The notes under the pieces are model-generated. The model made no database searches and was not told where the DNA came from. It saw only the letters and a list, made by a program, of their open reading frames with translations. A stretch of DNA of 64,000 nucleotides from positions 248,001 through 312,000 of the forward strand of contig JAFMAD010000001.1 in assembly GCA_029785195.1 (NCBI GenBank). Direction: 5' to 3'. The stretch is from Nitrososphaerota archaeon. Lineage in GTDB: Archaea > Thermoproteota > Nitrososphaeria > Nitrososphaerales > Gagatemarchaeaceae. Position numbers and translations under genes: made by a program. How positions within the stretch are numbered: position 1 is the stretch's first letter; every line of letters starts with the position of its first letter. Shown here in pieces: positions 2,407-17,205 of this stretch.

Positions 2407-4064
2407 GGAGCGCCCCCTTCCTTGGGCTGGCAGAGACCCTTGAGAGGGTCAAGGGGACGAGCAGCAAGAAGGAGAAGGTCGCGTTGCTGTCTTCGTATCT
2501 CAGGGGGCTCGGGGCGGAGGACGCTACAGTCGCCGCGAGGGTAGCGTCTGGGAGGGCGTCCGAGCGCGGGAGCAAGGACGAGGCGCAGGTGGGGTACTCC
2601 ACCCTCCTGGGGGTGCTGCGGGAGGTCACGGGCGCCACGGAAGGGGACGTCTCGAGGTCATATCTGAATCACGGCGACCTCGGAGAGGTGGCGGAGGACC
2701 TCCTGGCGAATAAGAAGGCTCAACCCCTCTTCGCCGAAGAGCTGACGCTCGGCGACCTCGATGCGGGGTTCTCGAGGCTGCGCTCGGCCAAGGGCGAAGG
2801 CTCAGCGTCGGCCAAGAAGAGGATAGTGAAGTCGCTCCTCCTTGCCGCCACCCCCCTAGAGGGGAAGTATCTGGTGAAAGCGCTCACGGGCGAGATGAGG
2901 ACAGGGCTGGTCACCGGCCTCCTCGAGGAAGCGATAGGGGCGGCCTACGGGCTGTCCAAGGAGGAAGCGGCCAGGGCCCACATGGTCCTGGGGGACGTAG
3001 GGGCTTTCGCAGGGAGGGCGGCGGCCGGGACCGCGGCTTCGGTCAGGATCGAGCCATTCAGGCCGGTCAACTTCATGCTCGCCGAGCCGTTCGCCACCGC
3101 CCGCGGAATATCGGAACACTTCGCGAGGACCGTGTACGCCGAGTACAAGTACGACGGGGTCAGGGCCCAAGTCCATCGGGCCGGGGGGGAGGTCAGGATA
3201 TACTCCAGGAGGCTCGAGGACATCACGTCGAGCTTCCCTGAGATCGTCGAGTCTTTCCGCGGAGGGGCGGGAGAATTCATTCTCGACGGCGAGGCGGTCC
3301 CCTTCGCGGACGGCCGCCCTCTCCCGTTCCAGCTCCTGCAGAGGCGGCTCAGGAGGATGGAGGATTTCGAGGAAGCGGCTAGGAGGGCTCCTGTCACCTA
3401 CTTCGCCTTCGACATACTCTTCAGCGGAGGGGAGGAGACGGTCCACCTGCCCCTCTCCCAGAGGCGGAGGATCCTGCGGGAGGTGGTCGCGGGGACTCCG
3501 GCGCGCCTGGCCGAGACGTCCGACGTCAAGAGCGAAGAAGAGGTGCAGGCTGCGTTCAGGCGCAGCCGGGAGCTAGGGTATGAAGGGCTCGTCGTGAAGG
3601 ACCCGGAGGAGCCCTACGCCATGGGGAAGAGGGGGTCAGGGTGGGCGAAGCTGAAGGAGGAGCTCGACACCCTGGACGCTGTCATAGTCGCGGCCGAGTA
3701 CGGCCATGGGAAGAGGGCAGGGGTCATTTCTGACTACACCTTCGCGGTGAGGGACGGTGGCGAGCTGAAGACGGTCGGCAAGGCGTACAGCGGCCTGACC
3801 GACAAGGAGATTCAGGAGATGACGCGCAGACTGAAGGAGATCACCCTGGAGGACTTCGGGTACCGGCGGACCGTGAGAGCCGAGATCGTCGTGGAAGTCG
3901 CCTTCGACAGCGTCCAGCGCAGCGACAGGCACGACTCAGGGTACGCGCTCAGGTTCCCCAGGATAAAGAGGATAAGGACGGACAAGGGTCCCTCTGATAT
4001 AGACGACATCGGGAAGGTCGAGAGGATCTTCAGAGGTCAGAAGCTGAAGGTGGACGAGGTCTAG
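2403..4064 (+). CDS. lig: ATP-dependent DNA ligase
   Basis: This 553-aa enzyme seals nicks using ATP in replication and repair. It has the archaeal/eukaryotic ligase I layout: an alpha-helical DNA-binding domain (about 1-215), the adenylation domain with motif I EYKYDGVRAQ (adenylated lysine K249), then EGLVVKDPEEPY (motif IV) and GWAKLKEE (motif V), and a C-terminal OB domain ending in FPRIKRIRTDK. The length is normal for an archaeal ligase. The ATG at 2403 overlaps the TGA of the acetyltransferase gene by 4 nt (ATGA), which indicates translational coupling in a nat-lig operon. Confidence 0.97.
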   Translation: MRSAPFLGLAETLERVKGTSSKKEKVALLSSYLRGLGAEDATVAARVASGRASERGSKDEAQVGYSTLLGVLREVTGATEGDVSRSYLNHGDLGEVAEDLLANKKAQPLFAEELTLGDLDAGFSRLRSAKGEGSASAKKRIVKSLLLAATPLEGKYLVKALTGEMRTGLVTGLLEEAIGAAYGLSKEEAARAHMVLGDVGAFAGRAAAGTAASVRIEPFRPVNFMLAEPFATARGISEHFARTVYAEYKYDGVRAQVHRAGGEVRIYSRRLEDITSSFPEIVESFRGGAGEFILDGEAVPFADGRPLPFQLLQRRLRRMEDFEEAARRAPVTYFAFDILFSGGEETVHLPLSQRRRILREVVAGTPARLAETSDVKSEEEVQAAFRRSRELGYEGLVVKDPEEPYAMGKRGSGWAKLKEELDTLDAVIVAAEYGHGKRAGVISDYTFAVRDGGELKTVGKAYSGLTDKEIQEMTRRLKEITLEDFGYRRTVRAEIVVEVAFDSVQRSDRHDSGYALRFPRIKRIRTDKGPSDIDDIGKVERIFRGQKLKVDEV

Positions 4065-4773: not shown

Positions 4774-5364
4774 ATGATGTTCGTAGCGTTCGAAGGGTTC
4801 TCTGGGACCGGCAAGACTTCACTCGCGATGAGGATGGAGGAGATGGGGTGGCTGAGGCTCCAGGAGTCGGCGCACGCCGTGGATCGGCGCGTCCCTGTAG
4901 CTGACAGGGCCGACACCGCCGCGGACTTCAGCCTGCTGGGGGCCACGATGGGATACGCCTCGATAATATCGAGCCAGCGAGAGAAGAGGAACATCGTCTC
5001 CGAAGGTTACCTGATATCTGACCTCGCGTACGCCAAGATCAGGTTTGAGCTGGGGAAGAGCGCCGCATACCCCTTGATGCTTTCGATGGTGAAAGGTATC
5101 CTCTCCGAGCCCAGGCTCAGGCCCGACCTGTACATACTCCTGAAAGCAGGGGACGAGACGATAAACAGCAGGCAGCTGAAGAAGGACGATCGGGAGAGGA
5201 ACCCCACGGAGTTCTTCAGGACTAGGTACTACACGGCGCTCGCCGAGATCCATGCGGAGCTGGGCGAGGACGCGCTAGAGAAGGTGGAGACAGACTCTGA
5301 CCTGGATGCGACGCTCAAGGAAATCGTCGGCATCATCGGGAAGCGCAAAGTGAGCTCTGCATGA
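4774..5364 (+). CDS. Thymidylate-kinase-like P-loop kinase
   Basis: This is a 196-aa P-loop NTPase. A Walker A motif (EGFSGTGKTS) is near residues 7-16, and a basic lid-like stretch RQLKKDDRERNP lies at about 132-143. The overall layout resembles deoxynucleoside-monophosphate kinases or related nucleotide kinases. The typical thymidylate-kinase DR(Y/F/H) motif is not clear, so the substrate is unassigned. A second ATG at 4777 is an equally possible start. The stop overlaps the next ATG at 5361 (ATGA), so the two genes are likely translationally coupled. Confidence 0.65.
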   Translation: MMFVAFEGFSGTGKTSLAMRMEEMGWLRLQESAHAVDRRVPVADRADTAADFSLLGATMGYASIISSQREKRNIVSEGYLISDLAYAKIRFELGKSAAYPLMLSMVKGILSEPRLRPDLYILLKAGDETINSRQLKKDDRERNPTEFFRTRYYTALAEIHAELGEDALEKVETDSDLDATLKEIVGIIGKRKVSSA

Positions 5365-6200
5365 ACACGAAGGAGTGGGAAGCGTTCCTGCTCGGGGCGA
5401 CCGAAGAAGTCCGGAGGCGTTTGTCCCCCCTCGCTTCCAGGGGAGGTCGCGGCAGGACGGTAGGGGTCGGCGCGGCCGGGGACCGGACCATCTACGCCGA
5501 CCGGCTCGCGGAGGACACCCTGCTGGACGAGTTGCGGAAGGTGGGGGGAGTAAAGGTGTTGAGCGAAGAGGCGGGGGACGCCGGGGAGGCCGAAGGCGGC
5601 ACCCTGGCGGTGGTGGACCCGCTTGACGGATCGTCGAACTTCGAGCGCGGCATACCGTTCTTCTGTACATCGGTGGCGGTCGTCGAAGCGGGGACGCTCG
5701 ACTCGGTGACTGTGGGTGTTGTCAGAGACCTAGTGACAGGCGATGTATACTCTGCACGGAGAGGAGGGGGAGCGAGAAAGAACGGCAGAGCGATCAGGAC
5801 GAGCAAGGCGGCCGAGGTCGCCGAGGCGGTGGTGGGGGTAGACCTGAGCAGAGGCCCGCCGGGGCTGGCTGAAGGGCTCGCCCCCCTGCTCGGCAGGGTG
5901 AAGAGACAGGTGCACCTGGGAGCCAACGCGTTGGAGATGTGCTACCTCGCGGAGGGGAAGACGGACGCCTTCGTCGACCTGAGAGGGACGATGAGGATAA
6001 CCGACTTCGCCGCAGCCTACCTGATCGCAGCCGAAGCTGGGGCAGTCGTCACCGACGGCTTAGGCGGGAAGCTCTCCCCGGAGTTCGACCTCGCGCACAG
6101 GTTCAGCTTCGTGGCGTCGGCGAACCCCGCCGTCCATCGGGAGATCCTGAGACTTTGCCGTGGATGGGTTTCAGCGGTGGAAACGCGCCCGAAAACCTAG
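5361..6200 (+). CDS. Inositol-monophosphatase / FBPase (class IV)-family phosphatase
   Basis: This 279-aa protein is a Mg-dependent, Li-sensitive-type phosphatase. The metal-binding motifs are intact: LSEEAGD (about 70-76) and VVDPLDGSSNFERG (about 88-101). The later ITDFAAAYLIAAEAGA replaces the usual W-D-x-A segment, which is typical of archaeal bifunctional IMPase/FBPases. Candidate substrates are fructose-1,6-bisphosphate or inositol-1-phosphate. Because CysQ-type PAP phosphatases belong to the same superfamily and a sulfotransferase cluster follows within 6 kb, hydrolysis of 3'-phosphoadenosine-5'-phosphate is an alternative, but only as an inference. Confidence 0.83.
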   Translation: MNTKEWEAFLLGATEEVRRRLSPLASRGGRGRTVGVGAAGDRTIYADRLAEDTLLDELRKVGGVKVLSEEAGDAGEAEGGTLAVVDPLDGSSNFERGIPFFCTSVAVVEAGTLDSVTVGVVRDLVTGDVYSARRGGGARKNGRAIRTSKAAEVAEAVVGVDLSRGPPGLAEGLAPLLGRVKRQVHLGANALEMCYLAEGKTDAFVDLRGTMRITDFAAAYLIAAEAGAVVTDGLGGKLSPEFDLAHRFSFVASANPAVHREILRLCRGWVSAVETRPKT

Positions 6201-6327: not shown

Positions 6328-7194
6328 TCATCCGTGGCGCGCGAGCGCCTTGACCGCCCTCGTCACCAGCAGCCTCTTCTGAGACCTGTTCACGTACGTA
6401 GCGACGTCCAAACGCCTTACCCCTCTCCGGTCGAGATACCCCCTGAGCATCTGGAGCCCCTGCCTCGGTGAGCGAGCCGTGAGGGCGACACTCCTCCCCA
6501 GCGCGTAGGGCCAAAAGTATCCCAGGGCGTACATCCCTCTCCCGTAGAGCAGGCCTTTTGAGATGGAGGTGGGTCTGGAGATGACGCTCGCGATGTCTGA
6601 GAACGACCTGGTGGAGTAGCCAGACGCCTGCGCCTTCAGATACAACCAGCTCTCCCAGCCATACTCCAGGGGAAACCGCATCGTGTTCGCGTCCCTCCAG
6701 AAGCCAACCCTGATCACCATCCCCGACCCCCTGGGGGACGACTCGGCCGACCTCTCCCCGACGACGCAGCCGCTCGCCACCGCCAGACGGGGATCCTCCA
6801 GCATTCGTCCTATCACGGCGGCCAGATACCCCGGGGGGAGCGAGTGGTCTCCGTCGAGCTTCATGACGAAGTCTAGCGGCGCCTTCCATCTCGCCAGGAC
6901 GCCGAGCCCGCGGTTGAGGACCCGGGCCAGCTCAGGCCGGCCCACGTAGCTCTCTTCATGGGGCTCGAGATGGACCACCTCCAAGTCGAAGGAGTAACTC
7001 CCTCTGGCGGCGTCAAGGAACCCGCCGGTCCCGTCCGTCGACCCGTCGTCCACCACGACCACCACCGAGGGCCTCAACGACTGGGCCTCTAGCGACGCGA
7101 GGGCCCTCCCCAACCCCCTCTCGTTTCTGACCGCCATGAAGACACCCACTGTCGCACCGTCACCCCGGTCACCTGCGCCCTGGTCGCGTTGCAC
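6328..7194 (-). CDS. Family 2 glycosyltransferase (GT-A fold)
   Basis: This 288-aa protein begins with a nucleotide-sugar-binding fold: VGVFMAVRNE near residue 16, VVVVDDGSTDGTGG (the first acidic motif), and FVMKLDGDHSLPPGYL, which carries the DxD-like metal site. A C-terminal hydrophobic/amphipathic part and a basic tail (SQKRLLVTRAVKALARHG) may dock it on the membrane. It should add a sugar to a lipid-linked or polymer acceptor. It is divergent from the nucleotide-sugar dehydrogenase gene, sharing a 60-nt intergenic region, and marks the left edge of the glycan cluster. Confidence 0.85.
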   Translation of the reverse strand: MQRDQGAGDRGDGATVGVFMAVRNERGLGRALASLEAQSLRPSVVVVVDDGSTDGTGGFLDAARGSYSFDLEVVHLEPHEESYVGRPELARVLNRGLGVLARWKAPLDFVMKLDGDHSLPPGYLAAVIGRMLEDPRLAVASGCVVGERSAESSPRGSGMVIRVGFWRDANTMRFPLEYGWESWLYLKAQASGYSTRSFSDIASVISRPTSISKGLLYGRGMYALGYFWPYALGRSVALTARSPRQGLQMLRGYLDRRGVRRLDVATYVNRSQKRLLVTRAVKALARHG

Positions 7195-7253: not shown

Positions 7254-8735
7254 TTGGCTGGCCCATCGAAGGAAGGGAACCTCGCGGAGACGCTCAACTT
7301 CCCGGCGGGGGCGCTCGCGCGGGGCCTGGAGGGGGGGAAGGTGAAGGTCACTGTTGTGGGACTCGGGAGGATCGGCCTCCCCACCGCCGCGCTCTTCGCC
7401 GAGTCAGGGGCGAGAGTCACGGGCTTCGACGTGGACCCCACGGTGGTCGACGAGACCAACGCAGGGAGGTGCAAGTTCGTAGACGAGCCGGGGCTAGGGG
7501 ACCTGGTGAAGAAGCACGCCGTGGGCCGCACCCTAAGGGCGACCACCTCCCCAGACGACGCCTTTGACTCGGACTTCATCGTCATCTGCGTCCCGACCCC
7601 CGTCGACCAGGGGAAGACGCCAGACTACTCCGCGGTCAGGCGCGCCGCCGAGGAAATCGGGGTGCGGCTCAAGAGGGGGACGGTGGTGGTCACGGAGAGC
7701 ACCGTAGGACCGGGGGTTGTGGAAGGGATGATAGGCCCCATCCTGGAGTCGAAGTCTGGCCTGGAGGCCACCTCAGAGTTCGGCCTGGCGGCGTGCCCTG
7801 AGAGGTCTGACCCTGGCAAGATACTCAAGGACATGAGGTCGCTCCCCAGGATAATAGGAGCTACCGGGCCCGGGTGCGCCGCGGCCGTCGTGGAGCTCTA
7901 CAGGCGCGCCCTGGGAGTCGAACCCATCCGCGTGTCGTCCCCGCGGACGGCGAACGCGGTCAAGCTGACCGAGAACATATTCAGGGACGTGAACATAGCC
8001 CTCTCCAACGAATTCGCCATACTCTTCGAGGGCCTTGGCATTGACGCGATGGAGGTGATAGACGCGTGCGCGACGAAATACAATTTCGTCCCACACTATC
8101 CGGGCATCGGGGTCGGGGGCCCTTGCCTCCCGAGTAACTCATACTACATGATCGCAGAGGCCATGAAAGATGGGAGCATCCCCTATCTTGTGAGGATGGC
8201 CCGGGAGATAAACGACAGGATGCCCGAGCACGTCGTTGAGCTGACTTCGCAGGCGCTGAACGCGGTGGGGAAGACGGTGAAGGGGTCCAAAGTGACCGTG
8301 CTTGGGGTCGCGTACAAGCCAGACGTAAGGGACGTGCAGCTCACACCGGTCGAGAAGGCGATAAGGAGGCTGACCGCGATGGGGGCGAAGCTCTCTGTTT
8401 ACGACCCGATGTACAGGGGAGAGACGGTTATGGGGATGAAGGTGGCAGAAAGCGCCCTGGAGGCCGCGGCTGGGGCAGACTGCCTGCTGCTGGCGACGGC
8501 GCACACGGAGTTCAAGAAGCTCGACCTGAAGGCGCTGTCGAAGGCCATGAACAAGGCCGCCGCCTTCGTAGACGGCAGGGACGCAGTCGTCCCCTCCTCG
8601 GCGACGAGCGCGGGGTTCTTCTACTGCGGGGTCGGACGGAGCCTCGTGCCCCCGGAGAGGCGAGAGCCCACGGAGGCGCCGAACGACACCGCGGGGGCGG
8701 GAGTCAGACGGCGAGCCCCCTGGCCGCGGCCCTGA
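7254..8735 (+). CDS. Nucleotide-sugar dehydrogenase (UDP-ManNAc/UDP-Glc dehydrogenase family)
   Basis: This 493-aa NAD-dependent enzyme oxidises C6 of a nucleotide sugar to the uronic acid in two steps. The N-terminal Rossmann motif is VTVVGLGRIGLPTA. The active-site cysteine lies in GIGVGGPCLPSNSYYM, which is closer to the WecC-like than the UDP-glucose branch. The C-terminal UDP-binding domain begins at GVAYKPDVRD. An Arg/Pro-rich tail of roughly 45 residues extends past the usual domain end and overlaps the convergent AsnB gene by 32 nt. The product, a UDP-uronic acid, fits the surface-glycan context. Confidence 0.9.
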   Translation: MAGPSKEGNLAETLNFPAGALARGLEGGKVKVTVVGLGRIGLPTAALFAESGARVTGFDVDPTVVDETNAGRCKFVDEPGLGDLVKKHAVGRTLRATTSPDDAFDSDFIVICVPTPVDQGKTPDYSAVRRAAEEIGVRLKRGTVVVTESTVGPGVVEGMIGPILESKSGLEATSEFGLAACPERSDPGKILKDMRSLPRIIGATGPGCAAAVVELYRRALGVEPIRVSSPRTANAVKLTENIFRDVNIALSNEFAILFEGLGIDAMEVIDACATKYNFVPHYPGIGVGGPCLPSNSYYMIAEAMKDGSIPYLVRMAREINDRMPEHVVELTSQALNAVGKTVKGSKVTVLGVAYKPDVRDVQLTPVEKAIRRLTAMGAKLSVYDPMYRGETVMGMKVAESALEAAAGADCLLLATAHTEFKKLDLKALSKAMNKAAAFVDGRDAVVPSSATSAGFFYCGVGRSLVPPERREPTEAPNDTAGAGVRRRAPWPRP

Positions 8736-10548
8736 CCTTCTCCTTCCCCCCTTCGACGAACTGCTCGTGCCAGACGTGGAACGCGTAGACGTGCCAGAGG
8801 AGGGACAAGGTGCTATAGGACCCCCCAGCGGCCGGCATCAGCCTCTTCAGGGCGTCCACGTCGAAGTACTTCTTCACCGCCTGGGACCCTGACACGACCC
8901 TCCTTATCTCCTCGCCGAACTCCCCCGGCCACCACTTCACTATGTTGAGGCTGAAGCCGTGCTTCGGCTTCCTGAAGCAAAACTCCGGAAGCACCCCCGC
9001 CATGGCCCTCCGGAGCGTCATCTTCCCCTCGCCATGGCCGTAGTTGTAGCGGTAAGGGACAGGGAGCATCAGGTCGAGCAGCTGGTTGTCGAGGAGTGGG
9101 ACCCTCACCTCGAGGGAGTGGGCCATCGACGTCGCGTCCTCGACCGCGAGGAAGTCGTCAGGCAGCTTGGTCCCAAACTCAGCGGAGGTCGCCTGCTGCA
9201 CGAAGTCGGCGCCGGCGTCGCCGAAGTAAGAGCTGCGCATCCTTTCGGTCAGGCGGTCCCTGAATTCGGTTATCGGCGCGGAGAAGACGGTGTCGTCCAG
9301 AGTCCCGTACACAGGGGACACCACGGTGAGGTATGAGTGGGCCCTGTCGTTGACTTTGGCCAGAAGCGCCTTCCTCCTCCCGGTCGCGAGGGCCGACAAC
9401 ATCGAAGCGCCTGGGACCTTCATCATCTGCTGGGCCTTCCGGAAGGCGGTGAACCTCGCGGAGGTCGGGTATCCGAAGAAGAGCTCGTCCCCGCCGATCC
9501 CGCTCAGGCAGACCTTCGCGTACCTGCTGGCGAACTCGTCGATGAACCAGTAGTAGGTGTTGAGCTTCGGCTGCTCTGAGTGCCATATCATCTCCGGGTA
9601 CAGGTCCAGGGCGGCTCTGTCAGAGATGACGAGCTCATGGTGGTCCGTTCCGAAATGGTCGGCGACGCGCCGCGCGTCGGCAAGCTCGTCGTCATCGTGC
9701 CCGAAGCCGAGGCAGAAGGTCTTCAGAGCGCGCGGGTAGTGCTTCGAGGCGAAGGCGACCACCGTCGAGCTGTCCAGCCCCCCGGACAGGAAGGAGGTCA
9801 CTTCGACGTCAGAGACAAGCTGCCGCTTCACCGACTGCTCGAGAGCGTCGCGGACCGCCTCAGCGGTCGGGACCGGGCCCGCGCTCACTGCAGGGGGGCG
9901 CCAGTAGGGCGTGACGGCGCCGGTGCTGGAGTCGAAGTACGAGCCTGGCTGGACCTTGTAGACCCCGGAGAAGAGGGTGAGCTCGAACGGGACGTAGTAG
10001 AGGGACACCAGGTAGTACAACCCTTCCCTGCTCACCCCTGCTTCAACGTCAGGGTGGGCAAGGAGGCCCTTGACCTCGCTGCAGAACGCGAAGTCCCCCG
10101 TCCGCGTCTTGGTGTAGTAGAGCGGCTTCACCCCGACGCGGTCCCTCGCGAGGACCAGCCTCCTTTCCTTGACGTCCCATAGGGCAACGGCGAAGATCCC
10201 GTCCAGCATGGCGAACACCCCCGTCCCGTACTCTTCGAAGCCGTGGAGTATCGCCTCCGTGTCGGACCTCGTCCTGAAGCGGTGGCCCTTCGCCTCCAGG
10301 ACCGCCCTCATCTCGGCGAAGTTGTAGATTTCGCCGTTGAAGACTATGGAGAGGGACTCGTCCTCGTTGAAGATCGGCTGGTGACCGCCCTCGACGTCGA
10401 TTATGCTCAGGCGGTTCGAGAAGATCGCGACTCCTCGGTCTACGTACTCGCCGTAATCGTCCGGACCACGGTGCTTCGTAAGGGCGGACATGGCCCTGAG
10501 GAGCTCCTTCGTGGCCTGTCCCCCTACGCACCCGCCTATGCCGCACAA
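8704..10548 (-). CDS. asnB: Glutamine-hydrolysing asparagine synthase-family amidotransferase (AsnB-like)
   Basis: This 614-aa protein starts MCGIGG, so Cys2 is the class II glutaminase nucleophile after Met removal. It continues with the N-terminal glutamine amidotransferase domain (SDTEAILHGFEEYG) and a C-terminal synthetase domain with the SFLSGGLDSS pyrophosphate loop and SGIGGDELFFGYP. It could make asparagine. However, AsnB homologues inside polysaccharide clusters often amidate uronic acids, and its position next to a nucleotide-sugar dehydrogenase supports that reading. The sequence alone cannot decide between them. Confidence 0.9.
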   Translation of the reverse strand: MCGIGGCVGGQATKELLRAMSALTKHRGPDDYGEYVDRGVAIFSNRLSIIDVEGGHQPIFNEDESLSIVFNGEIYNFAEMRAVLEAKGHRFRTRSDTEAILHGFEEYGTGVFAMLDGIFAVALWDVKERRLVLARDRVGVKPLYYTKTRTGDFAFCSEVKGLLAHPDVEAGVSREGLYYLVSLYYVPFELTLFSGVYKVQPGSYFDSSTGAVTPYWRPPAVSAGPVPTAEAVRDALEQSVKRQLVSDVEVTSFLSGGLDSSTVVAFASKHYPRALKTFCLGFGHDDDELADARRVADHFGTDHHELVISDRAALDLYPEMIWHSEQPKLNTYYWFIDEFASRYAKVCLSGIGGDELFFGYPTSARFTAFRKAQQMMKVPGASMLSALATGRRKALLAKVNDRAHSYLTVVSPVYGTLDDTVFSAPITEFRDRLTERMRSSYFGDAGADFVQQATSAEFGTKLPDDFLAVEDATSMAHSLEVRVPLLDNQLLDLMLPVPYRYNYGHGEGKMTLRRAMAGVLPEFCFRKPKHGFSLNIVKWWPGEFGEEIRRVVSGSQAVKKYFDVDALKRLMPAAGGSYSTLSLLWHVYAFHVWHEQFVEGGKEKVRAAARGLAV

Positions 10549-10681
10549 AGGAAAGACCTTGCGAGCCGTGCTTCAGGAGTACTAAAGGATGAGCAGAAGA
10601 AGCGCCCCGACGAAGACGCGGAGCGACAATCAGCTTAAAACTCGGCCCGAGCATCTGGCCGGGAAGCATGAGAAAGGCGGC

Positions 10682-11578
10682 ATGGGCCAAGGCGAACAGG
10701 TCGCTTCCGTGGAGGCGCAGGGGTGCAGCCGCCCCGGGACCGTGGCCGCCCATCCCCCCGGTCGACGGAGCGCGGCCCTCCGCCCGGCCAGGCGGGCGCC
10801 CGAATTGAGGATCGACGTCTGCGTCCCCTCGCTGAGGCCGCTGCCGGGCGAGTTTACGCGCCACCTGGAAGAGGTCATCCCTGTCAACAGGATTGTGGTT
10901 GACTCCACGAAGGGGCGGGGGCGGTCGAGGCAGAAGCTCGTGGACCAGGTCGAGACCGAGTTCTTCGCCTTCATCGACACCGACGTCATCCTGATGCCGA
11001 ACTGGTTCGGTGACGTCACCTCCGCGATGACTGACAGGACAGGGGCGGTTGAAGGGAGGCAGTCCGCCGACACCGGGAACAGGGATGCAGACCATGTCCT
11101 TTCCGCGATGGGCTCGCTCAACAGGGCGCTAGGGAGGGAGGGGCCCCTCGACACCATAGACAGGGCGTTCACAGGGGCGACCCTGGTCCGGACAGCCGCA
11201 GTGCGGGGGATCAGGTTCCCCAACATACACTACTACGAAGACGAGTACATGCGCCTGTACATAGAGAAGAACGGGTACAAGTGGATAAGGACGCCAGGGG
11301 AGAACTACGTGCACAGGCTGTCCGGGCGGGACATGGCGGCCGAGACGTACGAGAGCGCGAAGTGCGGATACCTGCTGGGGCTGCTCACCCCAGCCGACCA
11401 GCTCAAAAGGCTCCTCCTCCAGGAGCCGTTCAAGGCCGCCTATATCCTCGCCAGGTCCGGAGACGTCGCGGCCGCCAGGCAGCTCATGAAGCGGAGGATA
11501 GATTCGACCAGGGGCGTCCTGCACGCCTACGTGCAGCACCTCAGCCTTGACGGCGCAGGATACGCCACCGAGAGCTAG
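10682..11578 (+). CDS. GT-A-like glycosyltransferase paralogue 1
   Basis: This roughly 298-aa protein has a disordered, basic N-terminal stretch of about 40 residues, then a GT-A-like core: RIDVCVPSLRP, GRGRSRQKLVDQVETEFFAFIDTDV (read as two adjacent blocks; the IDTD forms a DxD-type metal site), TLVRTAAVRGIRFP and YEDEYMRLYIEKNGYKW. It is clearly homologous to the protein at 15545-16459, sharing VCxPxL, the R-rich helix, VRxAAVRGIR and the ED-Y-RLY block. ATG 10682 is preferred; the frame is open from 10589. It is likely to transfer a sugar in the same pathway as its neighbours. Confidence 0.72.
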   Translation: MGQGEQVASVEAQGCSRPGTVAAHPPGRRSAALRPARRAPELRIDVCVPSLRPLPGEFTRHLEEVIPVNRIVVDSTKGRGRSRQKLVDQVETEFFAFIDTDVILMPNWFGDVTSAMTDRTGAVEGRQSADTGNRDADHVLSAMGSLNRALGREGPLDTIDRAFTGATLVRTAAVRGIRFPNIHYYEDEYMRLYIEKNGYKWIRTPGENYVHRLSGRDMAAETYESAKCGYLLGLLTPADQLKRLLLQEPFKAAYILARSGDVAAARQLMKRRIDSTRGVLHAYVQHLSLDGAGYATES

Positions 11579-11653
11579 CGAAGGCCCACCTCGGCCGGGG
11601 CCGCCGCTCGGGACGCGCCTGGCTGGAGACCCGGCGGCGGGCCAGAAGAAACG

Positions 11654-11661
11654 TTTCTAAA
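11654..11661 (+). promoter_or_regulatory. Promoter element of sulfotransferase 1
   Basis: TTTCTAAA sits in the block AACGTTTCTAAAG, 27-34 nt before the in-frame GTG at 11688. A near copy (AACGTTTTCAAAG) precedes sulfotransferase 2. Confidence 0.5.
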
Positions 11662-11666
11662 GCGTC

Positions 11667-12659
11667 GTGCCAACTCGTGCCACTGCCGTGACCGGAGCCG
11701 CCTCGGACTGGAAGCCCAACCTGTTCGTCCCAGGCTTCCCGAAGTGTGGCACGACCGCGCTATGCGACTACCTGAAGCAGAACCCCGAGGTGTACGTGAT
11801 GAGCCCGAAGGAGCCGAACACTCTGGTAGAAGGCGAGAGGATGCCCCGGTGGGGGCCGAGACAGGTCAGACTGATGCGGCCGTATTATCCGATCCTGGAC
11901 TTCAAAGCGTACAAGAGGCAGTTCGAACGGCACCGGGACGTCCGATACAGGGCCGAAGGGTCCCAGAACTACATCTTCCCCCCTCGGTTTCCGGCGAAGC
12001 TGAAGAGCTTCTCCCCCGACGCGAAGCTCCTCTTCATGATACGGGAGCAGAAGAGCAGGCTCGTCAGCATGTACTACTTCCTCTACACAGAGCATGGAGA
12101 ACCGGACTTCATCAGGTGGGCGAGCGAACGCCTTGAGCCGGAGGTCGACAAGTTTCTCTTTCGGAGGAAGCTCGCTAGCTTCCACGCCCTCTTCGGAGAC
12201 GCCATGAGGGTGATCCGAAACGAGGCACTGGAGCGGTCCCCTCAACCGACGATGGACGAGGTGTTCGAGTTCCTTGGCGTAGCCAAGGTCAAGGTGGACA
12301 GGGTCAGCTCGAAGGTGGGGGAGCTGAAGTCGCTGAGTCCGACGCAGAGGGCCGCTCGGTCGAAGCGCGCCCGGTTCGTCCGGGACGTCCGCCTGCCTGC
12401 CACCTACCTTTGGAACGTCGCCGACCCTGGACGGAGCTCTCCGGCTCTGAACCGCCTTTTCCAGCTACACCCGCTGAGGAGGATGATGAGAGGGGAGAGC
12501 GAGCAGAGGAGCAACCCTGTAGCCCGCCGAGTCGACGGGCTCCCTGAAGAGGGCAAGATCCCGCCGGGGCTGGCGGAGAAGCTCGACGAAGACTACGCCG
12601 AGACCGTCGGATTCTGCAGGGACAGGCACCTGCTCTTGGCGGACGGCGGTCGCGACTGA
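11667..12659 (+). CDS. Sulfotransferase family protein 1 (PAPS-dependent)
   Basis: This protein of up to 330 aa should transfer sulfate from PAPS to a sugar hydroxyl. The 5'-phosphosulfate-binding loop is FPKCGTTALCDYL just after the start. The 3'-phosphate region probably lies in AKLLFMIREQKSRLVSMYY, and EVFEFLGV is the usual late sulfotransferase helix. The frame begins at GTG 11667, but promoter spacing favours GTG 11688 (323 aa). It is followed 200 nt later by a second, diverged copy. Bases 11705-11826 are identical to 12871-12992 of that copy, while the remainder differs extensively. Confidence 0.85.
   Translation: MPTRATAVTGAASDWKPNLFVPGFPKCGTTALCDYLKQNPEVYVMSPKEPNTLVEGERMPRWGPRQVRLMRPYYPILDFKAYKRQFERHRDVRYRAEGSQNYIFPPRFPAKLKSFSPDAKLLFMIREQKSRLVSMYYFLYTEHGEPDFIRWASERLEPEVDKFLFRRKLASFHALFGDAMRVIRNEALERSPQPTMDEVFEFLGVAKVKVDRVSSKVGELKSLSPTQRAARSKRARFVRDVRLPATYLWNVADPGRSSPALNRLFQLHPLRRMMRGESEQRSNPVARRVDGLPEEGKIPPGLAEKLDEDYAETVGFCRDRHLLLADGGRD
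11705..11826 (+). repeat. 122-nt perfect direct repeat, copy 1 (sulfotransferase PAPS-binding segment)
   Basis: This block is base-for-base identical to 12871-12992 (offset 1166). It encodes DWKPNLFVPGFPKCGTTALC and the next 20 residues. Identity ends abruptly on both sides. Confidence 0.95.
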
Positions 12660-12807
12660 AGGGGCTGGAAGGCAGACGAGCGCCTCTTGGCGGAGCCGGG
12701 GGTTTAGGGGAGCGGATGAAGGGCCCGCCCGCCGGAGCCTTCGATTCACGCAGCGGTACGACTGAGGGCGCCGGCCAGAGACGCCGCATGCGCAGAGCCG
12801 GAAAACG

Positions 12808-12815
12808 TTTTCAAA
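12808..12815 (+). promoter_or_regulatory. Promoter element of sulfotransferase 2
   Basis: TTTTCAAA within AACGTTTTCAAAG resembles the box at 11654. ATG 12863 is about 50 nt downstream. A GTG at 12830 in the same frame opens a 9-codon reading frame that stops 2 codons before that ATG. Confidence 0.4.
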
Positions 12816-12862
12816 GGCGTGGCGCCATCGTGCCTGCTGGATTGAACAGGAGCGCCTGAGAG

Positions 12863-13816
12863 ATGGGCCAGGACTGGAAGCCCAACCTGTTCGTCCCAGG
12901 CTTCCCGAAGTGTGGCACGACCGCGCTATGCGACTACCTGAAGCAGAACCCCGAGGTGTACGTGATGAGCCCGAAGGAGCCGAACACTCTGGCGATAGGC
13001 ATCGACCTCCCGGCATGGGCCAGGGACCACCATCAGCTGAAGAGGCCGTACTTCACCTACCTTGACATGGACCAGTACCGCGGGCAGCTCGAAAGGAGGG
13101 GAGGGTTCAGATTCCGGGTCGACGGGAGCCAATCATACATATGGCCCCCTGAGTTCCCGCAGCGGCTTTGGCGGTTCGCTCCAGGGGCGAAGCTCCTGTT
13201 CATGATAAGGGAGCAGAAGGAAAGGCTGCTGAGTCTCTACTTTCATGGCTTCACCTATCACCTTGAAGCGGACTTCGGCCGCTGGATAGAAAGGAGGTTC
13301 AGGCCGCAGGCCCGCCCCTTCTTCTTCAAGGAGATGCTGACTTCTTACCATCAGCTGTTCGGAGACGCCGTGAGGGTGGTGGACAACGGGTCCCTTTCGG
13401 ACCGTCCGACTCAGGTGATGCGCGAAGTGTTCGAGTTCCTCGGCGTGGGGGAGGCGGAGGTCGAGCCGCTGCGCTCGAACATGGGGAAGCTGAAGTCACT
13501 AGACGAGGGAGAGCGGAGGACCGCAGCGCCATATCTCAGGCTCACCAGGACGGTGATGGCCCCGGCCAAGTACTTCCTCAACTTGGCGGATCCTGAGGGG
13601 AAGGCGCCGCTCCGGAAAGCCCTCGGGGAGCTCAACCCGCTGAGGAGGATTGGAGGATACCAGACGAGCCCAGGGAAGGCGAGGGGACCTGCGACAGGCG
13701 GCGCAGCGGCGACGGGGAAAATCCCGGCGGACCTTGCTTCCCAGCTGGACGACGACTACGCAGCCACCCTGGAGTACTGCAGGGCGGAACACCTCTTGTT
13801 GGGAGCCGGCGGGTGA
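12863..13816 (+). CDS. Sulfotransferase family protein 2 (PAPS-dependent)
   Basis: This 317-aa paralogue of the preceding gene keeps the same FPKCGTTALCDYL loop, AKLLFMIREQKERLLSLYF and EVFEFLGV. Outside the identical first 40 codons, the two proteins align at perhaps 40-50 percent by eye, with different residues in the central acceptor region (FRVDGSQSYIWPPEFP against YRAEGSQNYIFPPRFP). The two enzymes probably sulfate different positions or acceptors. The C-terminal 40 residues are Gly/Ala-rich before a conserved LDDDYAATLEYCRAEHLLL end that matches LDEDYAETVGFCRDRHLLL of copy 1. Confidence 0.85.
   Translation: MGQDWKPNLFVPGFPKCGTTALCDYLKQNPEVYVMSPKEPNTLAIGIDLPAWARDHHQLKRPYFTYLDMDQYRGQLERRGGFRFRVDGSQSYIWPPEFPQRLWRFAPGAKLLFMIREQKERLLSLYFHGFTYHLEADFGRWIERRFRPQARPFFFKEMLTSYHQLFGDAVRVVDNGSLSDRPTQVMREVFEFLGVGEAEVEPLRSNMGKLKSLDEGERRTAAPYLRLTRTVMAPAKYFLNLADPEGKAPLRKALGELNPLRRIGGYQTSPGKARGPATGGAAATGKIPADLASQLDDDYAATLEYCRAEHLLLGAGG
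12871..12992 (+). repeat. 122-nt perfect direct repeat, copy 2
   Basis: See copy 1 at 11705-11826. The first mismatches flanking the block are C/A before it and T/C after it. Confidence 0.95.
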
Positions 13817-13879: not shown

Positions 13880-15367
13880 CTAACTGTAGACGATTCGTGG
13901 GATCCTCGCTATGCGCTCTCGGGAACGCTTGTCCACAGAAGCGAGGAGGCCGAAATAGGCGCACATCCCCAGAGCCACCAGCAAGATGAGCCTGAACCCA
14001 TAGTCGATGGTCGGCATCCCGGCGGCCAGGAAGTATGGGACGGCCAGTCTGATCACGACGGCCATGAAGACGGCCGACCCCGAGTAGTAGACCAGAGGCT
14101 TCATCGTGCCTGCGAAGGGCGCCAGGCCAAGTCTTCTGAGCTTGATGGACGCGAAAGCCGCGAGAAGGACGAGCTGATCCAGCGCCCACAGCGTTATGAT
14201 GAACGGGTACGAGTATCCCAACCCTCCCCCCACGTATACTATAGCCACCACGCTCGCGATATAGGAGACGCCGTACACCAAGTTGACCGACGGGACGAAG
14301 AAGAGCGACCCCCTCAGAAGGTTCCTGTGCCTGTTCCCCTCAGCTATGTCCGAGGTGTCCTTGCCCATGAGGGAGTAGTCCAGGAGTATGAAGATTGCGT
14401 TCGCCAGGGCCCCGAAGGCGAGGAGAACGAGCGGGACCGAGGTCACGACGTACTGCTTGGAGAGAAGATACAGGAAATCTGGAGAGAGCGCCGCGACCCC
14501 GACAGCCATAGGGACGCCGACCATCATCATCAGGTCGAACAGGGACCCGATCATACGCTCCCCACCCCCCCGGAGGAGCATCGGGTAGAGGGCATAGGAG
14601 AGGTATCGCGAGTACCCGACCATCGAAGCTATGACGAACGCTGCCTGGAAGTATCCCGTGAGCACGTACCCCCCGGTCACAAGGAACACCGCGTATGTGT
14701 CGGCTAGCGTGACTATCGCGGGGACGGAGTCGAACAGCGGGAGCCACGCGCTCTTGAGCCACATCTTGAGCTGGCCGAAGGAGAACGACCCCTCGAACGT
14801 CCCCCTGGCGAAGTAGGTCCCCAGCCCTGCCTGGACTACGTTGGAGAGGGACAACGAAAGCAGCACCCCGGGGAGGCCCCAGCCGAGGACGAAGATCAGG
14901 AGGTATCCGACCGCGAGCTTCGACGCCTCGGTGGAGAGGAGGGTGTATGCGGTCGCCTGCGGCCTGTGGACCGAGAGTATGGCGTTCGCGGTCCGGTACC
15001 AGTACGCCACCGGGACCAAGGCCAGGGCCGAGAAGAAGAGCGAGGCGCTCGACGCGATCGCGCTCCCTCCCGCAAGGGCGAAGAGGGCGAAGACAGCGCA
15101 CCCGCCGAGCGACAGGTAGAGATTGCCCACTATCGCGGTCTTCCCGAACTTCCCGCCTCTTCCGGTATCCCGCGGTATCCAGTAGCTTATCACCGAGACC
15201 GGGTACCCCGCGAAGGCGACGACGTCTGTGACGACCTCCAAGAGGCCGAACTGCGAAGTCGTCAGGCGGTGCGTCACCATCGTTGTGAACACGAGGCCGG
15301 TGACTATGCTGATCATCCACGCCCCGAAGACGACAGCCCCGGTGCGGCGTGGAGCTATCCCTGCCAC
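13880..15367 (-). CDS. Wzx-type polysaccharide flippase (MOP superfamily)
   Basis: This 495-aa integral membrane protein is composed of about 12-14 hydrophobic segments. The N-terminus (GAVVFGAWMISIVTGLVFTT, then HRLTTSQFGLLEV) has the look of Wzx/RfbX oligosaccharide flippases, in which the first helix is followed by a loop naming the 'lg..eyG' region. It should move lipid-linked glycan units across the cytoplasmic membrane. It lies between the sulfotransferases and the second GT-A-like gene, on the opposite strand, consistent with the cluster's role in surface glycan assembly. Confidence 0.85.
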   Translation of the reverse strand: MAGIAPRRTGAVVFGAWMISIVTGLVFTTMVTHRLTTSQFGLLEVVTDVVAFAGYPVSVISYWIPRDTGRGGKFGKTAIVGNLYLSLGGCAVFALFALAGGSAIASSASLFFSALALVPVAYWYRTANAILSVHRPQATAYTLLSTEASKLAVGYLLIFVLGWGLPGVLLSLSLSNVVQAGLGTYFARGTFEGSFSFGQLKMWLKSAWLPLFDSVPAIVTLADTYAVFLVTGGYVLTGYFQAAFVIASMVGYSRYLSYALYPMLLRGGGERMIGSLFDLMMMVGVPMAVGVAALSPDFLYLLSKQYVVTSVPLVLLAFGALANAIFILLDYSLMGKDTSDIAEGNRHRNLLRGSLFFVPSVNLVYGVSYIASVVAIVYVGGGLGYSYPFIITLWALDQLVLLAAFASIKLRRLGLAPFAGTMKPLVYYSGSAVFMAVVIRLAVPYFLAAGMPTIDYGFRLILLVALGMCAYFGLLASVDKRSRERIARIPRIVYS

Positions 15368-15544
15368 TATGGCCCTGACACCCTGGCAGGCCTGGAGCTT
15401 CCGGGCGCCAACCCTCCGTCCCTCCTACGTGACCGCTATTTTCCTTTCCTGATGCCGCCGGTCATGGGCCTTGACAGAGCCGTGCGGGGGGTCGTGCCTC
15501 TCCTGGAATCAGGAGAGGACCACTCAAGGCCCCGGCACCCAACA

Positions 15545-16459
15545 ATGGTTATGAATGTCGGCGTCTGCTCTTTGACGGCTTTGGAACGCTCTTCAGACGG
15601 GGCGCCCCTGGGGTCGCTTGGTTCATCACGAGACGTGTCGCCCGCCCGTGCCACCCCTGCGGCGCCACCGATGACGCCGTTGGCCCCGCCGAGCCGGAGG
15701 GCGCTGCGCCTTGCCGAGCCGGCCAGGAGGAGCGTCCCGGCCCCTTCCCCTCAGGTCCCGGGAGCCCCTGAAGAGAAGGAGGCGCGGGAAGTCCTTGACG
15801 TGTGCATCCCCACTCTCCATGGCGCCTCCGTGAGGCTGATGGAAGACATCAGGCGCTTCTTCCCGGGGAGCCGCGTGCTCACAGAGGTGGGACGACCGAG
15901 GTGGGCGGCACGGCAAGCTCTCATAGACAGGGTGGAGTCGGACTGGTTCGTTTTCACTGACGACGACAACAGGCTCACGCGGGGGATAATGGAAGACGCG
16001 TCAGCGCTGATGAAAGACGGCAGGGTAGGCGCGGTCACCTTCCACGGCAAGGATCTAGACCCGAGGTGGCCCTCGTACGGGCAAGGCCCTATGGGGCTCA
16101 CCCTGATACGGGTCGCAGCCGTGAGGGGGATCCGCATCCCCCCGATGATTTCTGGCGAGGACAGCTACATCCGCCTGTACGTCGGCAAGATGGGCTACAG
16201 ATGGATGGAGCTGCCGGGCCCCTACTATGAACACCACCGCCTGAGGACTTTCAGAGACGGCTACGAGCGCGGGTTCTGGGGGTACGCCATCGGGAGCGTA
16301 AGGCTCAGGACCGAGATACCTTACATCTTGTTTCTCTGGCCACTGAGGGTCCTCAAGGACCGCCCCCGCTACTTCTTCTTCTGCATGGCGAGGAGGCTGA
16401 ACATAATACGCGGGGCGGTCCACGCGCGGCTGGTCGGCGTAGCAGAGAGGGTCCGTTGA
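15545..16459 (+). CDS. GT-A-like glycosyltransferase paralogue 2 with Pro/Ala-rich N-terminus
   Basis: This roughly 304-aa protein is open in frame from 14966, but the antisense part overlaps the flippase gene and is not credible. A TATA-like GGTTATGAA near 15548 makes TTG 15572 or 15581 good alternative starts to ATG 15545. An N-terminal linker of about 70 residues is rich in Pro, Ala and Arg. The core has LDVCIPTLHG, RWAARQALIDRVESDWFVF, TDDDNRL (DxD-type), LIRVAAVRGIRIP and GEDSYIRLYVGKMGYRWME. It is homologous to the protein at 10682-11578. Its stop overlaps the TTG start of the deacetylase gene (TTGA). Confidence 0.7.
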   Translation: MVMNVGVCSLTALERSSDGAPLGSLGSSRDVSPARATPAAPPMTPLAPPSRRALRLAEPARRSVPAPSPQVPGAPEEKEAREVLDVCIPTLHGASVRLMEDIRRFFPGSRVLTEVGRPRWAARQALIDRVESDWFVFTDDDNRLTRGIMEDASALMKDGRVGAVTFHGKDLDPRWPSYGQGPMGLTLIRVAAVRGIRIPPMISGEDSYIRLYVGKMGYRWMELPGPYYEHHRLRTFRDGYERGFWGYAIGSVRLRTEIPYILFLWPLRVLKDRPRYFFFCMARRLNIIRGAVHARLVGVAERVR

Positions 16460-17205
16460 TAGCACGCATCAGAAACGGCCTGGCTATGCTCTCTCCTGCC
16501 CTCGGCTACGGGCTCGACATCGAGAGGGGGGGAACCACCGCCTTCCTAATCACGGTAGACTATGACACTGCCCAGAAGGCAGACTCGGAGGAAGCCCACA
16601 TAGAAGGTGCCCGCCTGATTCTCGACCTTTCGAGGAGGTTCGAGGTTCCCGTGACGTGGGCGGTGTGCGGAGAGAGGGCAGACCGCGACATCTCTCTCTT
16701 CGAGGAGGTCAAGGCGAGCCTCGGAGAACTTGCGTACCACACCTATTCGCATCGTCTGATACCCCAGATGAGCTCAGAGGAGCTGCAGGAGGACCACCGG
16801 AGATGGGTCGCGCTCGTCGGGAGGAGCCCGACGTCGCTGGTCTTTCCGCACAACGAGGAAGGCATGTTCCCTGAGCTCGTCAGGCTCGGTTTCAAGGCGT
16901 TCCGACCTCGGGCTCATAGGGTGGGGATCCCCTACGCGAGCCAGGGGATGGTGGCGGTCCCCCCGGTGACCGCGTTCGGGCCCGACACGGACTACCGGGT
17001 GCTCCTCTCCTATGTGGGGCTCTGCAGAAGATACGGTGCGGTCGCCCATTTCTGGACGCACCCCTGCAACGCGAAGCGAGCTCAGGCCGAACCGCTCTTC
17101 CGCGCCGCGGCGGACTTCGAAAGGAAGACCCTGAGCCAGTTCGCTCTCGAAACCCAGGACCGCCTCGAAGCGAGGAGCGACGGGGTCGCGCGCCTCGGGG
17201 GGTAG
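16456..17205 (+). CDS. NodB-type polysaccharide deacetylase
   Basis: This 249-aa protein has a distorted TIM-barrel carbohydrate esterase 4 core. FLITVDYDTAQ carries the first catalytic/metal Asp pair (motif 1), GELAYHTYSHRL gives the HxxxH motif 2, and FPHNEEG and FRPRAHRVG provide later motifs. It would remove N- or O-acetyl groups from the glycan made by the cluster. There is no signal peptide, so it likely acts in the cytoplasm or on the inner face. The TTG start overlaps the preceding TGA by 3 nt, indicating co-translation with the glycosyltransferase-like gene. Confidence 0.83.
   Translation: MIARIRNGLAMLSPALGYGLDIERGGTTAFLITVDYDTAQKADSEEAHIEGARLILDLSRRFEVPVTWAVCGERADRDISLFEEVKASLGELAYHTYSHRLIPQMSSEELQEDHRRWVALVGRSPTSLVFPHNEEGMFPELVRLGFKAFRPRAHRVGIPYASQGMVAVPPVTAFGPDTDYRVLLSYVGLCRRYGAVAHFWTHPCNAKRAQAEPLFRAAADFERKTLSQFALETQDRLEARSDGVARLGG

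Follow-up and report, generated by a model that had tools for sequence, protein, structure and literature searches.

The sulfotransferase pair and its locus

Two sulfotransferase genes, A and B, lie in tandem in the 64-kb window (the whole stretch of DNA analyzed, 64,000 nucleotides). The features of the locus are listed in Table 1. The reading frame of gene A is open already from a GTG at 11667; the GTG at 11688 was taken as the start to fit the orthologues in two related genomes (G012 and G015), which begin ∼7 residues before WKPN. The A and B sequences are 51% identical overall, and the predicted fold of gene B resembles PDB 3rnl and the heparan-sulfate sulfotransferases. Family matches, the PGFPKCGTT loop and the general fold link A and B to the PAPS-dependent PF13469/PF00685 sulfotransferases (PDB 3rnl, 1nst, 3-OST); 3rnl is distant (∼24% identity over the aligned part). 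The genome bin holding the window (G000; 1.6 Mb, 70 contigs, 78% complete) was searched with the gene B protein, which returned A and B as the only such genes, and with the family model, which matched gene A alone. Viral or phage relatives were sought and none was found.

The pair is embedded in a surface-glycan locus (Table 1). The 495-aa product of 13880-15367 looks, by its sequence, like a multi-span flippase, and the product of 5361-6200, which has a weaker match to CysQ (PAP phosphatase), may possibly clear PAP. G012 and G015 each encode an APS kinase and an ATP sulfurylase and can thus make PAPS; the G000 bin, 78% complete, yielded a partial APS kinase and no sulfurylase. The APS kinase of G015 (C1:578837-579289; locus L081) lies ∼7 kb from the pair, near the glycan locus.

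A palindromic element precedes each gene. The cores, GAAACGTTTC and AAAACGTTTT, have conserved flanking bases and lie 57-69 nt before each copy of the tract described below. The pattern occurs twice in 64 kb, once per gene, with 0.08 occurrences expected; in G012 and G015, too, each gene is preceded by a related element. The palindromes are candidates for a shared control element or regulator site.

Table 1. Coordinates of the sulfotransferase pair, its neighbors and the Nitrosocaldus tract (window positions unless a contig is named)
Feature	Position	Strand	Remarks
Inositol-monophosphatase-family gene	5361-6200		best NCBIfam match bifunctional FBPase/IMPase
GT2-like glycosyltransferase	6328-7194
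Nucleotide-sugar dehydrogenase	7254-8735
Asparagine-synthase-like amidotransferase	8704-10548	-
GT2-like glycosyltransferase	10589-11578
Palindromic element GAAGAAACGTTTCTAAAGCG	11645-11664	+	upstream of gene A
Sulfotransferase gene A	11688-12659	+	323 aa from GTG 11688; PF13469 E=4e-8, PF00685 E=3e-7
Probable converted tract, gene A copy	11705-11826	+	122 nt, codons DWKPNLFVPGFPKCGTT...KEPNTL
Gene A tail, unconverted and diverged	11827-12659	+	56% nt identity to tail B
Matching palindromic element GGAAAACGTTTTCAAAGG	12799-12816	+	upstream of gene B
Sulfotransferase gene B	12863-13816	+	317 aa; PF13469 E=2e-5, slightly short of cut-off
Probable converted tract, gene B copy	12871-12992	+	122 nt, same as gene A copy
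Gene B tail, unconverted and diverged	12993-13816	+
495-aa ORF	13880-15367	-	no Pfam match
Related glycosyltransferase within ORF	14966-16459
Polysaccharide deacetylase	16456-17205
G062 99-nt tract	contig 41 (locus L021), 5677 and 8303	-	mid-gene

The identical block and the part of the PAPS site it encodes

The original prediction, of a 122-nt identity confined to the start of two genes diverged elsewhere even at synonymous positions, was borne out. The match covers every one of the 122 bases, and the first base beyond either edge already differs. To the left of the tract there is no alignable sequence between A and B; on the right, identity over the adjoining 40 nt is ∼50% or less, followed in G015 by a length difference. 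The aligned tails are identical at 459 of 822 nt and at 121 of 274 amino acids, and 54 of their 117 same-residue codons differ. The longest run of identical codons is 40, against a maximum of 14 in 100,000 shuffles of the aligned codons. The block is the sole direct repeat of at least 40 nt, and the sole exact repeat of at least 18 nt, in the 64-kb window; a check of the G000 bin for further copies gave a count of exactly two.

The block had been described as the PAPS-binding segment, which holds for the 5'-phosphosulfate loop and not for the 3'-phosphate-binding part. It encodes N-terminal β1, the 5'-phosphosulfate loop (PGFPKCGTT), α1 and β2 only, with secondary structure taken from a moderately confident AlphaFold model (mean pLDDT 68). 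The PGFPKCGT sequence near the N terminus is invariant across 8 homologues and aligns with 3rnl and 1nst. The 3'-phosphate-binding part, MIREQKxRLxSxY, falls in the unconverted tail (codons ∼114-126 of gene B; MIREQKSRLVSMY in gene A). It was aligned with the matching region of 1nst, and R116, E117, Q118, R121, S124 and Y126 are invariant. Both motifs of PAPS-dependent sulfotransferases, the 5' loop and the 3' Arg/Ser, are present.

Comparison with related genomes

A search of 31 genomes of the genus found the A-B pair in four (G000, G005, G012 and G015), with constant gene order. Because of its 100% identity to the window over 19.9 kb, G005 was dropped as an independent genome; it probably represents the same population as the window and hence adds no independent support. 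G012 and G015 are separate species whose flanks are syntenic at ∼76% DNA identity. The case for conversion was built on only three informative lineages, G000, G012 and G015.

The comparison with relatives that the original prediction called for gave the same pattern in both species: the heads of A and B are identical over 121 nt in G012 and 120 nt in G015, and the tract edges in the three lineages agree within 3 nt. Each lineage (G005 with G000) has its own head sequence, common to A and B. Among the three, 22 of 39 head codons vary, yet A equals B within each genome. Silent differences between A and B in the block number 0 of 37 in G000, 0 of 37 in G012 and 0 of 36 in G015, and those between genomes 8 of 36 (G012-G015) and 12 of 33 (G000-G015). 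The tails of A and B differ silently at 39 of 106 codons in G012 and 44 of 110 in G015, beside the 54 of 117 in G000. Pooled over the three genomes, 0 of 110 puts within-genome silent divergence of the block below 2.7% (95% upper bound), ∼1/8 of the silent divergence between G012 and G015 (22%). The last copying in each lineage was thus recent relative to speciation.

The head tree groups A with B by genome and the tail tree groups by gene. The swapped topology was rejected by the AU test for the head (p=2.6e-7) and for the tail (p=1.06e-5). Before TGG, gene A of G000 has the codon GAC, as in the B-type codon of G015, which may give a weak hint as to the direction of conversion; no direction is claimed.

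A 240-aa ORF sits between A and B in G012 and G015, where the spacing is 1980-1989 nt vs 1166 nt in the window, and block identity is kept despite it. The ORF had no match in Pfam or NCBIfam searches; its sequence reads like a SAM-dependent methyltransferase (VLLVGAGQGESAAFYA). It is 87% identical in DNA between G015 and G012 and is not in the window genome (loci L019 and L020).

Other pairs of neighboring genes

In the Nitrosocaldus genome G062, an exact 99-nt tract is common to two other, otherwise diverged sulfotransferases at a distance of ∼2.6 kb. It lies in a different segment (RYRVDGSTSYTFNTDTAKRIKEFNPDAKIIMCI), and nt identity in its flanks is ∼40-75%. G062 is the only genome with both genes of that pair. 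The tract appears to show an independent localised conversion in a different family of the order, with short tracts recurring in this protein family. Such a pattern points to opportunistic short-tract conversion between neighboring sulfotransferases, and not to a head-specific device.

Within the cluster of A and B, the glycosyltransferase pair (10589-11578 and 14966-16459; 32% identical) has a longest exact run of 11 nt and carries no tract, so conversion is not a general property of the locus. Other closely spaced sulfotransferase pairs of the order were checked as well: that of G268 is evenly similar, with runs of 25-29 nt and no sharp tract, and those of G133 and G153 have no run of at least 22 nt and no sharp tract. 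In G127, of the same order, a 38-nt exact direct repeat was recorded at 3314 and 3866 (locus L077; 552-nt spacing), accompanied by a 22-nt run that keeps this register.

Probable recurrent gene conversion and the alternatives

In the head, paralogues within a genome are closer than orthologues between genomes. Orthologous positions are kept, as seen from the A-B order, the syntenic flanks and the tails that group by gene. Heads identical within genomes and different between them, at preserved positions, amount to concerted evolution. The localised gene-conversion tract that had been proposed is strongly supported by the within-genome identity, the between-genome difference and the AU tests, and it recurs in at least three lineages. 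On these sequence comparisons, A and B have very probably undergone recurrent, domain-limited gene conversion that has outlasted species.

The pair would be an old tandem one of a thaumarchaeal (Nitrososphaerota) genus, whose acceptor-side parts diverged before the sampled species split. The first 39-40 codons (a beta strand, the 5'-phosphosulfate loop and the first helix) would have been overwritten repeatedly by non-reciprocal homologous recombination, presumably of the RadA type. Strand exchange should need near-identity, so that the diverged tails could not pair and only the head still could; each conversion would in turn restore the identity that enables the next one. As only the head can pair and its identity is renewed at each conversion, the tract edge was probably inherited from the common ancestor, not reset at each event. 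Selection for two acceptor specificities may keep the tails distinct and both genes retained. Crossing over between the direct repeats, which are separated by 1.2-2.0 kb, would remove one gene; the retention of both in all carriers despite this deletion risk suggests that both are needed.

The head may also be a co-evolving unit under selection, both copies having to suit one common partner or cofactor pool. This is considered unlikely. Lineage-specific replacements are seen in the head (E/A, V/I, V/M and S/E), and on this reading they would be spread to both enzymes. If the reading were true, conversion would let two enzymes with different acceptors evolve a shared cofactor-side module in step.

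A dedicated 5' cassette, with a constant cofactor-binding head joined to variable acceptor tails for diverse sulfation, would fit the same head on different tails and the sharp, conserved edges close to a structural boundary (β1-loop-α1-β2). Extra heads were sought in the genome, genus and family, and none was found beyond two per carrier genome; a third head, a silent tail or a pseudogene is absent from all genomes examined. In all four genomes the gene order is unchanged and each tail groups with its own type, A or B; no reassortment was seen. Contrary to the division into constant cofactor head and variable acceptor part that had been suggested, half of the PAPS site belongs to the unconverted tail; the converted piece in Nitrosocaldus is a different segment. 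A swappable cassette that diversifies sulfation thus found no support and is very improbable.

Selection at the nucleotide level (an RNA element, an overlapping gene or codon constraint) might hold the copies identical without copying, as both open a coding region, where constraints on translation initiation would be common. It can hardly be credited, because the fourfold sites of the head drift between species about as fast as the tails, differing at 11 of 18 positions between G000 and G012 and 5 of 18 between G012 and G015. The 3'-phosphate motif, equally conserved, keeps its residues and not its codons in G000 (4 of 12 silent differences), which shows the effect of protein constraint alone. 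The one kind of element that would still fit is one that has to agree between A and B and can otherwise vary at will.

Collapse or chimerism in assembly could have made the second head out of the first, since short-read bins may merge repeats and the window bin is incomplete. However, the 122-nt repeat is close to short-read length with unique flanks, and two independent assemblies, including a contig of 1.7 Mb, show the same layout with different heads. Three distinct doubled heads in independent assemblies make collapse extremely unlikely.

Independent recent re-duplication in each lineage, of the head alone or of the whole gene with fast divergence of the tails, would also give within-genome identity and can practically be dismissed: orthologous tails, order and flanks are common to all lineages, rate alone is insufficient for tails ∼45% diverged beside zero head change, a head re-inserted in place is gene conversion renamed, and recent duplication of the whole gene, already rejected in the original prediction, is excluded by the grouping of the tails by gene.

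Relation to known systems

Between flanks that are too diverged to take part, recurrent conversion would keep ∼120 nt of A and B identical by recombination in at least three lineages of an uncultured archaeon, and so record how short a stretch can be maintained in this way. The sharp edges allow study of what halts conversion tracts, and full-length trees of such genes blend two histories and call for caution.

A possible reason for keeping two acceptor specificities is suggested, by analogy, by Halobacterium salinarum VNG1056C and VNG1057C, which have consecutive locus tags and sulfate different sugars of one N-linked glycan (PMC11980604). These are annotated as alkaline-phosphatase/sulfatase-like, and the analogy is functional only; conversion is not described in the portion of that source drawn on here.

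The closest precedent is mtrA-1/mtrA-2 of methanogens, a tandem pair of archaeal paralogues for which long-lasting gene conversion confined to one domain was described in many species (PMC4632066, Wang et al. 2015). In both systems one part is homogenised while the other stays distinct, and paralogues within a species are more alike than orthologues between species. They differ in that conversion covers the entire MtrA domain, beside a distinct fused transmembrane segment, whereas in A and B it covers only 120-122 nt, beside tails that are diverged homologues of each other; there is no relation between the enzymes or the pathways. Recurrent concerted evolution has been reported for 26 prokaryotic genes, including tuf and mtrA (PMC6053082, Wang and Chen 2018), which share with A and B a within-genome similarity above that between genomes. 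No sulfotransferase is named in the text of that study, and all seven of its archaeal cases are methanogens. The A-B pair joins these cases of long-lasting concerted evolution; its tract is unusually short, and it adds a non-methanogen archaeon to this short list.
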